From Treponema pallidum subsp. pallidum str. Nichols (GTDB lineage Bacteria; Spirochaetota; Spirochaetia; Treponematales; Treponemataceae): 64,000 bases of DNA. Where the stretch lies: the NCBI RefSeq assembly GCF_000410535.2, contig NC_021490.2:1039218-1103217 (forward strand), read 5' to 3'. Below are positions 24,642 through 41,827 of this stretch, piece by piece. Below the pieces are notes generated by a model. It did not search any database and was not told the DNA's origin. It worked only from the letters and a program-made list of their open reading frames with translations. How positions within the stretch are numbered: the first letter of the stretch is position 1; each line of letters opens with the position of its first letter. The position numbers were made by a program, and so were the translations under genes.

Positions 24642-25415
24642 ATGCAGATCTTCGATACTCACGCCCACATCGGTCTTATTCACCCAGATCCCGTAGAGCG
24701 GCTGCGGGTAGTACAAGAGGCACGACGAGCTTCTGTCACCCGCATCATGAGTATTTGCAACAGCCTTCATGACTTTGCCGCCGTATACGAGACGCTCCAG
24801 TTCTCACCCTCTGTCTATCACGCCGTAGGTGTCTCCCCTTCTGAGGTCATGGCCCCGGGGAAGGATTGGATAGATACTATTCAAAAAAGCCTACAACTCC
24901 CTCAGGTAGTTGCCTTAGGCGAGACCGGATTGGACTACTGTAAAAAGTACGGTGATAAACGCTCCCAGATTGGGCTTTTTATCACTCAATTGGATATTGC
25001 TTCAAAGGCAAAAAAACCAGTTATCATCCACAACCGTGGTGCGGGCCAGGATATCCTGGACATCCTCAGCGAGCGCATTCCCGACCAAGGCGGTGTGTTC
25101 CACTGTTATTCTGAGGACGCAGAGTACGCACGTATGGCGCTGGATTTACCTGTGTACTTTTCTTTCGCGGGGAATTTAACTTACCGGAATGCACGAAATC
25201 TCCATGAGACTGTATTGGCCCTCCCGCTTGACCGAATTCTAGTGGAATCCGAAAGCCCGTTTATGTCCCCCGCCACGTACCGCAACAAGCGCAACCGACC
25301 GGCGCACACAGTTGAAACCGTGGAGTTCATGGCTGAGCTCCTTGATATGGACATGCTTGAGCTTGCCGACCAGCTGTGGAAAAACAGCTGTGCGTGTTTT
25401 CACCTTCCTGAGTGA
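24642..25415 (+). CDS. TatD-family metallohydrolase, variant active site
   Basis: This 257-residue TIM-barrel protein carries the TatD layout: DTHAHI at 5-10, GETGLDY with Glu 94, IIHNR with His 130, and FHCYS with His 154. Two usual features differ. The metal-ligand Asp of the ETD(S/A)P motif is Glu here (VESESPF, Glu 204), and the HP after AVGV is SP. TatD proteins are 3'-5' exonucleases or AP-site nucleases acting in DNA quality control. A canonical second copy lies near base 41000. The gene is followed after 7 bases by the Dus gene, likely one transcript. Confidence 0.9.
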   Translation: MQIFDTHAHIGLIHPDPVERLRVVQEARRASVTRIMSICNSLHDFAAVYETLQFSPSVYHAVGVSPSEVMAPGKDWIDTIQKSLQLPQVVALGETGLDYCKKYGDKRSQIGLFITQLDIASKAKKPVIIHNRGAGQDILDILSERIPDQGGVFHCYSEDAEYARMALDLPVYFSFAGNLTYRNARNLHETVLALPLDRILVESESPFMSPATYRNKRNRPAHTVETVEFMAELLDMDMLELADQLWKNSCACFHLPE

Positions 25416-39636: not shown

Positions 39637-40662
39637 CTACCAACTTTCCTGGCGGATAACGTAATCGTGAAACCTTCCCCTTTTCAGCGCGTGCTTTACC
39701 CTCTCTAGGTCCGCGGGGCGTATCCCCGGCAGCACCACGCGCACCGCGTGCTCTGTTCGCTCATATGAAGGATCAAAGCCCGCCTCGCGCAGCTTAACTA
39801 CCAAGCGGAGCGCATTCTCCTCACGAACAAAGGCTCCCAACTGTATACGCCAAAGCACCCCCCGCGTTTCCCCCGAATGGGTTGGCGTATACACCGACTT
39901 CATCCCTGACACCTTCCCGCCACCAGCTGCGTAGGGAAGAGGCGCAGCAGCCGCATAGGAAGAAGACGAAGGAACAGGCTGCGCGTGCGAGTTAGGTGCA
40001 GCGGAGCCAGGCACGGCCGTCCCATAGGGAACCCGACTGGGAGTCGAACCCGGTGCTGCGTACGCGACAGGCGGCGCACCATACTCCGAAGCGGGGACAT
40101 CCGTTGTATTCGCCACTCCCGGCACACCCGGAGTTCCAGCCCTCCTTCCGACAGGAGCTGGCGGTGGATTATGAGGATCCGCATACATGACAGGCGCACT
40201 GGACGTGGGAGCAGTAGGCGGAACACCAAAGGAATCTTGAGGTAAGACACCAGGAGAAGTCTGCCTATCGTTGCGTTGCTGTGAAGCGTGCGCATTCGGA
40301 TCTGCCTTGTGTATGGAGACGCGCGCCACCCCCGCGTTCAGCATGTCTAACGCAACAGCTGCAGCCTTTGACACGTCAATCTCTCTATTTGCAGCGTAAG
40401 GTCCCCGATCATTGATGCGCACGATTACCTTTTTGCCGTTGTCCAAGTTCGTCAACTCCACAACCGTACCAAAGGGAAGCGTGCGGTGCGCGGCAGTATA
40501 CGCGTTCATGTCAAAAATCTCCCCACTTGCGGTAGGTCTTCCGTTAAAAGACTCCGCATAGTAGGAAGCATACCCTTCCGGAACGATTACCTCGCCGGCT
40601 GCAAAAAGCATCTGCACGTTCCACAATACTGCAGCCACTGCAACGACACGCTTGTCCATCAT
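39637..40662 (-). CDS. rlpA: RlpA-type septal ring lytic transglycosylase with SPOR domain
   Basis: This is a 341-residue exported protein. The signal peptide ends near LFAAGEV. The double-psi beta-barrel follows at once, with YASYYAESFNGRPTASGEIF, AAHRTLPFGTVVEL, and VRINDRGPYAANREID, which carries the catalytic Asp. A 150-residue Pro/Ala/Ser-rich linker leads to a C-terminal SPOR domain (about 266-341, WRIQLGAFVREENALRLVV). RlpA cleaves peptidoglycan strands that lack stem peptides, and the SPOR part takes it to the septum. It lacks a lipobox Cys. GGAAGGAG stands before ATG ATG. It ends at the 19-bp hairpin. Confidence 0.92.
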   Translation of the reverse strand: MMDKRVVAVAAVLWNVQMLFAAGEVIVPEGYASYYAESFNGRPTASGEIFDMNAYTAAHRTLPFGTVVELTNLDNGKKVIVRINDRGPYAANREIDVSKAAAVALDMLNAGVARVSIHKADPNAHASQQRNDRQTSPGVLPQDSFGVPPTAPTSSAPVMYADPHNPPPAPVGRRAGTPGVPGVANTTDVPASEYGAPPVAYAAPGSTPSRVPYGTAVPGSAAPNSHAQPVPSSSSYAAAAPLPYAAGGGKVSGMKSVYTPTHSGETRGVLWRIQLGAFVREENALRLVVKLREAGFDPSYERTEHAVRVVLPGIRPADLERVKHALKRGRFHDYVIRQESW

Positions 40663-40779
40663 TCAACACTCCTTCCAAAGGCTTCACCCGAGCAAAACGA
40701 TGCTTCACAAGACACCCCCGACGCTTATCGGAATATGGACAAAAAGGTTGAAATCTTTTAAGGTAGGGGCGCAGTGGGT

Positions 40780-40865
40780 TGCTGGAGACGAGACTTGAAC
40801 TCGTACGACCGCTGCCGGTCAAGGGATTTTAAGTCCCTGATGTCTACCAATTCCATCACTCCAGC
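40780..40865 (-). tRNA. tRNA-Leu (anticodon UAA)
   Basis: The 86-base sequence folds with acceptor arms GCTGGAG and CTCCAGC, a D arm, an anticodon loop reading CTTAAAA, a long variable arm typical of Leu, and the TTCAAGT T-loop. The CCA end is not encoded. A promoter lies just upstream. Confidence 0.95.
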
Positions 40866-40884
40866 GTTGTGCGGCCGTGCTGCC

Positions 40885-40914
40885 ACTGTAGCGGGTAAGT
40901 AGCCGGGAGGTCAA
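40885..40914 (-). promoter_or_regulatory. Promoter of tRNA-Leu
   Basis: On the minus strand TTGACC (five of six), 18 bases, TACAGT (four of six). The tRNA 5' end lies about 20 bases downstream. The -35 box overlaps the ribosome site of the divergent TatD gene. Confidence 0.6.
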
Positions 40915-40915
40915 C

Positions 40916-41827
40916 ATATACAGTGATTCGCACTGCCACCTTGCGCTGCTTGTAAAGCAAAGTGAGGATCCTCAATCCCTCTTCAGACAGCTGGACCTTG
41001 CACGCTTCCCGTTTCTCATGGAGGTCGGTACGCGCGCAGGGGATTATCAGGAAAGAAAGGCTCTGCTCCTGCAGGCCTGCGCGGGGCGCTCGCTTCCTTC
41101 TTGTCTGCACTTCTCTGTAGGGGTCCGGCCTGCGCCGGAGCCCATTGCGCATCCTGAGACAGCCCTTTCACTGCTTCGGTCAGACGTGCGTGCCCTGTGC
41201 GCAGAACAGGCGCCCTACCGAGCCTTGGGTGAATGCGGTCTTGACCGACACTGGAATGGCCCTCAGGTAGCGTGCAAAGCACGGAAAGGATCTGGTGTGC
41301 GCGGTACACCAGATCTTGATGCAGAGGAGTATCTTTTTAAGGCACAGCTCTCTATAGCGAAAGCTCAGAACCTGCCGCTCATCATTCATTCACGGGACGC
41401 TTTTGAACCGACACTCCGTTGCCTGGACTCAGTGGGGTGGAGAAAGGGTGTGATGCATTGTTTCTCGTACGGAGTCGTTGAGGCACACGCTTTTTTAGAA
41501 CGTGGTTTGTACATCTCTTGTGCAGGCACACTTACGTACGCAAAGACGACATCCGAACTTCTCGCGCGCGATGCGCTTATTCGGAGTATCCCTCTGGATC
41601 GTCTATTGTTAGAAACGGACACTCCCTACCTCGCTCCAGTACCGCATCGAGGAACACACAACAGACCCGAGTATGTCCGACATACCTACGCGTTGGTAGC
41701 AAACATCCTTGGTATAAGTGAGAAGGCTTTAGCACAGCACGTGTTTGCAAACTGCTGTGCCCTTTTTGAAGCGCAAGAACCGACAGAAGCATGTTCCCAA
41801 GCGCATGCCCCCACACGATATACCTAA
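40916..41827 (+). CDS. TatD-family metallohydrolase, canonical motifs, apparent AUA start
   Basis: This is a 303-residue protein if read from base 40916. The first ATG (41018) would cut off the DSHCHL metal motif, which is encoded in frame at 40925. The frame is closed by TAG at 40889, and between that stop and the motif there is no ATG, GTG or TTG. The only sensible start is ATA at 40916, five bases after GGGAGG. GECGLDR, PLIIHSRD, HCFSYG and ETDTPYLAP are all present, so the active site is complete. It may nick or trim DNA as in other TatD enzymes. An insert of about 13 residues follows GLDRHW. It is divergent from tRNA-Leu. Confidence 0.85.
   Translation: MYSDSHCHLALLVKQSEDPQSLFRQLDLARFPFLMEVGTRAGDYQERKALLLQACAGRSLPSCLHFSVGVRPAPEPIAHPETALSLLRSDVRALCAEQAPYRALGECGLDRHWNGPQVACKARKGSGVRGTPDLDAEEYLFKAQLSIAKAQNLPLIIHSRDAFEPTLRCLDSVGWRKGVMHCFSYGVVEAHAFLERGLYISCAGTLTYAKTTSELLARDALIRSIPLDRLLLETDTPYLAPVPHRGTHNRPEYVRHTYALVANILGISEKALAQHVFANCCALFEAQEPTEACSQAHAPTRYT

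Follow-up and report, generated by a model that had tools for sequence, protein, structure and literature searches.

The tatD gene of Treponema pallidum subsp. pallidum str. Nichols carries ATA where its relatives carry a canonical start codon. Judged by the sequence and by homologous loci, the AUA at 40916 is nearly certainly the inherited start position of the gene, and a full-length TatD is probably translated from it, weakly. Natural AUA starts are already documented in bacteria, namely in Staphylococcus aureus (PMC13009471), and tatD would be a further case. All coordinates refer to the window, the 64,000-nucleotide stretch of DNA that was analysed, and the source genome is a single contig of 1,139,633 bases.

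Reading frame and missing canonical start

The features of the tatD frame are as follows.

40916..41827, + strand: tatD coding sequence read from AUA, 303 aa, TP0994 by gene order (entry in PMC5951579)
40916..40918, + strand: ATA, where 67 of 69 related loci have their start codon
40889..40891, + strand: in-frame stop TAG that closes the tatD frame on its 5' side
40925..40939, + strand: DSHCH metal motif of TatD, in the first barrel strand
41018..41020, + strand: first in-frame ATG (Met35), implausible as a start

An earlier note, made from this DNA alone, had the frame closed at 40889 and free of ATG, GTG, TTG and CTG from there to the metal motif, with GGGAGG at 40905-40910 set 5 nt before the ATA. 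Reading the codons after the TAG (cgg gta agt agc cgg gag gtc aac ATA tac agt GAT TCG CAC TGC CAC) confirmed all of these coordinates, the 5 nt being TCAAC. The first CTG (40946) and the first ATG (41018) of the frame both lie 3' of the DSHCH motif, and the frame runs free of stops through 41827. Its first ATG, GTG or TTG falls at codon 42, the latest among 49 long stop-to-stop ORFs in the 64-kb window, and a scan of 20 late-start ORFs in the window revealed no other case of a Pfam domain starting 5' of the first canonical start. The window holds one copy of the Shine-Dalgarno-plus-ATA motif, GGAGGTNNNNATA, where chance alone would give 0.25, so that by itself it is weak evidence; the position of the ATA goes beyond chance because homologous loci start at the same codon.

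The gene was identified through gene order, in which TPASS_0977 (NIF3), TPASS_0988 (MarC) and TPASS_0990 (TPR protein) give TP0994, and TPASS_0994 is entered as 'TatD related DNase' (PMC5951579). Read from AUA, the N-terminus of the 303-aa protein is (M)YSDSHCHLALLVK, and the tryptic peptide QSEDPQSLFR also precedes Met35. No peptide or ribosome data for TP0994 were found in the main texts of papers on the proteome of T. pallidum, and the gene goes unnamed in the main texts of the papers on T. paraluiscuniculi/T. paraluisleporidarum and the hare treponeme, where lists of hypothetical genes are placed in the supplements.

Two other genes of the window were noted. A second TatD paralogue at 24645-25415 (+ strand), YcfH-like and beginning MQIFDTHAHI..., has an ordinary ATG start; it is TP0979 by gene order and is also entered as a TatD related DNase (PMC5951579). 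Beside the tRNA-Leu gene described below, 39637-40662 (- strand) is TP0993 by gene order, an RlpA family member with an open frame and an ATG, which is annotated 'pseudo' yet has been detected as protein (PMC10600179).

Start codon in related loci

The comparison covered 69 related tatD loci (29 with flanks and 40 more), taken from members of the genus and the family and from one MAG; L016 and L027 look like one genome. The codon three before the Asp of the motif is ATG in 57 loci, TTG in 9 and GTG in 1, and the remaining 2 have ATG one codon further 5'; ATA is found at this place in T. pallidum alone. The start position proposed in the earlier note is thereby strongly supported by homology, with 67 of the 69 starting at the same codon and 2 one codon upstream. 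A non-canonical start is not kept between species, all 69 relatives using TTG, ATG or GTG. In two family members, L089 and L099, tatD opens ATG-GCT and is one codon longer than in all others.

Whether relatives carry ATG here was a check suggested with the original observation, and the answer is divided: ATG stands in 57 of the 69 loci, but TTG is the start in all six other members of the genus (L003-L008), where it follows GGTCAAGA. The weak start TTG is present throughout these six, and GGTCAAGATTG is invariant among them. The leader of genus g16 (L023, L025) reads GGAGGTCAAG-ATG and that of T. pallidum GGAGGTCAAC-ATA, with one base differing before the start codon and one within it; set side by side, T. 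pallidum has GGAGGTCAA(C)-ATA and the other genus GGAGGTCAA(G)-ATG. By these comparisons it is the start codon that was altered on the way to T. pallidum, and a parsimonious route would lead from GA-TTG, by loss of one T, to ATG and then, by a G-to-A transition, to ATA.

Were the A at 40918 a sequence error or a mutation private to the strain, other T. pallidum strains would have ATG. We regard this as very improbable, given that the rest of the tatD locus is clean and that the eroded -10 box described below is an independent change. The assembly (1,139,633 bp), which we take to fit the re-sequenced Nichols genome, was also counted against a sequence error.

Leader and divergent tRNA-Leu promoter

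The features upstream of the start are as follows.

40906..40911, + strand: Shine-Dalgarno sequence GGAGGT of tatD
40909..40914, - strand: -35 box TTGACC of the tRNA-Leu promoter, between the tatD Shine-Dalgarno sequence and start codon
40885..40890, - strand: -10 box TACAGT of the tRNA-Leu promoter
40884..40889, + strand: eroded tatD -10, TGC-CACTGT, matching 2/6, against TGn-TATA(A/C/G)T in relatives
40780..40865, - strand: tRNA-Leu(UAA), divergent neighbour of tatD, kept in nearly all close orthologs

The tRNA-Leu(UAA) gene diverges from tatD at a distance of 50 nt, and GGTCAA before the tatD start is TTGACC on the opposite strand, the -35 of this tRNA gene. In 23 of the 24 relatives tabulated, TTGACC or TTGACA is separated from a -10 by 17-18 nt, and this box was assigned to the tRNA promoter because, with a longer spacer (L024, L028), it stays by the tRNA and not by the tatD start. 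The tRNA-Leu promoter is the sole promoter-like site in 40600-41100. By sequence, the conserved leader at 40881-40915 doubles as promoter for the divergent tRNA-Leu(UAA) gene, which qualifies the earlier note: GGGAGG is present, but part of what is conserved is the opposite-strand -35 and not a ribosome site. The overlap with this -35 and the loss of the tatD -10 were both absent from the earlier note.

In relatives, judged by consensus, one -10 appears common to both divergent genes. It is pseudo-symmetrical; read toward tatD it is TATA(A/C/G)T, matches at least 5/6 in 20/20 relatives, lies 31-43 nt before the start, and is preceded by TGn in 19/20. T. pallidum has kept the tRNA reading alone (TACAGT), and its tatD reading, CACTGT, matches 2/6. 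In the T. pallidum leader stretch no candidate tatD -10 exceeds 3/6, a value equal to the window background, and consensus matches do not measure expression. By this comparison T. pallidum has lost the reading of the shared -10 toward tatD, and because of this loss transcription of tatD is probably weak as well. Genome-wide, RNA-seq gives a figure of 973 transcribed mRNAs out of 987 in T. pallidum (PMC12223175).

The Shine-Dalgarno duplex of T. pallidum tatD is predicted at -11.5 kcal/mol, compared with -8.8 to -11.5 kcal/mol in the TTG-starting congeners. GGAGGT would dock the ribosome 4-5 nt 5' of the AUA, on which the initiator tRNA would form two pairs and a C-A mismatch, as at other AUU and AUA starts. 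A leader hairpin was considered as a regulator and rejected; at -17.6 kcal/mol the stretch around the start is more stable than in any other of the 30 loci, but it does not stand out from shuffles (z 0.28).

The lost -10 counts against use of the AUA, and it lends weight to a different account, in which the start has mutated and the tatD -10 reading has gone as part of a decay of expression, TatD being unneeded in a host-restricted, reduced genome and the frame being intact as the loss is recent. This account is serious because two expression signals, the start and the -10, have degraded in the same single lineage. The tRNA reading of the shared -10 has meanwhile been preserved, and the paralogue with an ATG start may cover the function. 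We consider decay the main alternative, less likely than use of the AUA.

TatD protein

The product matches the TatD family profile PF01026 at 2.8e-50, with the match opening at residues just before DSHCH, and TIGR00010 at 4.9e-48 with a score of 163.8, below the curated cut-off of 206. Foldseek gave YcfH and its relatives as the nearest solved structures (1yix, E 6.8e-18). By its ligands, profile and predicted TIM-barrel fold, the T. pallidum product is placed in the TatD family of metal-dependent nucleases. The seven active-site positions checked (D4, H6, H8, E106, H158, H181 and D235) are intact and invariant in 30/30, and of the marks of a pseudogene T. pallidum tatD shows neither a disrupted frame nor a loss of catalytic residues. 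T. pallidum alone deviates at two positions that are invariant elsewhere (D36E and W71R), which counts against use of the AUA.

A start at ATG 41018, the first in-frame ATG, would give a shortened protein of 269 aa. The identity of residues 2-34 relative to the rest of the protein is 0.66 in T. pallidum versus 0.63-0.81 in relatives, and in the AlphaFold model (pLDDT 91.7) residues 3-7 form strand 1 and residues 33-36 strand 2. Since codons 2-34 are conserved as coding, as they are in relatives, and the predicted first strand lies within them, 41018 would be no start; its product would begin beyond strand 1 and the HxH motif and beyond most of strand 2, and would be without the metal site. No relative among the 69 loci uses this position. 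A start there is contradicted by sequence comparison and by the structural model, and we give it hardly any credence.

For tatD the T. pallidum branch is 3.4 times as long as its sister branch, compared with 1.7, 4.6 and 5.7 in three control families (Dus was left out, at 5 alignment columns). By this measure tatD shows no excess rate on the T. pallidum branch relative to the controls, although a recent loss would stay hidden. The open frame, the intact active-site residues, the unexceptional substitution rate and the fact that AUA starts work in bacteria (PMC13009471) all speak against decay. A recent loss would leave an equally intact frame, and the intactness of the active-site motifs, which had been taken as a sign of use, stands as an observation (30/30) with less force as an argument, the tatD -10 having also been lost.

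An ORF caller restricted to ATG, GTG and TTG starts TatD at Met35, so that the metal site is missing; this truncation matters for expressing or modelling the enzyme and for peptide searches.

Probable use of the AUA and comparison with known systems

In the reading that we favour, full-length TatD of 303 aa would be made from the AUA, fMet-initiated and at a low level; we infer both the initiation at this codon and its weakness. The alternatives first put forward, a real AUA start or decay, have shifted in that the start position is now strongly supported by homology and use of the AUA appears probable, and decay carries more weight than before through the loss of the tatD -10. A more specific proposal is that TatD is held deliberately low and IF3-sensitive, the AUA having replaced a weak genus-wide UUG and forming, with the loss of the -10, two steps of one selected down-tuning, inside a bidirectional promoter region that also yields tRNA-Leu(UAA); this we regard as speculative and improbable. 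With the canonical start gone and the frame kept, tatD is a clean natural experiment on whether a gene can be sustained by AUA initiation, and its use in this pathogen can be decided with N-terminal peptides, ribosome profiling and the genomes of strains.

The T. pallidum protein shares its fold, the HxH motif and the later ligands with the TatD/YcfH nucleases (1yix, 1j6o, 6l25) and, unlike them, is encoded without a canonical start codon before HxH. Escherichia coli infC and pcnB start with AUU, and their likeness to tatD lies in the AUN start. In these two genes the AUN start holds synthesis down, and IF3 discriminates against it. A regulatory role has been shown for them, whereas the IF3 frame of T. 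pallidum has ordinary starts; the AUU start of pcnB is cited in PMC13009471. T. pallidum infC (L046) was tried as a second AUA case and rejected, its frame containing TTG and ATG starts. The pattern TTG GCG after a GGAGGA-like site, seen across the genus, points to UUG for this gene, not the AUU or AUA of E. coli and S. aureus.

At the level of the promoter, the tRNA-Leu/tatD locus of relatives has, by consensus, the layout of the bidirectional promoters of E. coli with a shared -10 (PMC12825309), and in T. pallidum the tatD-ward reading has decayed. The closest parallels in translation are S. aureus infC, ccpN and citZ, which have AUA starts (PMC13009471) and share with tatD a strong Shine-Dalgarno sequence, short spacing and an expected low yield. 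For infC and ccpN the strong Shine-Dalgarno sequence is a prediction; those non-canonical S. aureus sites that were assayed gave about 10% of the AUG yield in poor medium (PMC13009471). The infC and ccpN starts were mapped by Ribo-Ret, whereas the tatD AUA is read from sequence and homology. In S. aureus, cvfC1 and ccpN have conserved non-canonical starts, whereas the ATA of tatD occurs in one lineage and is conserved in no relative, which is a point against its use.
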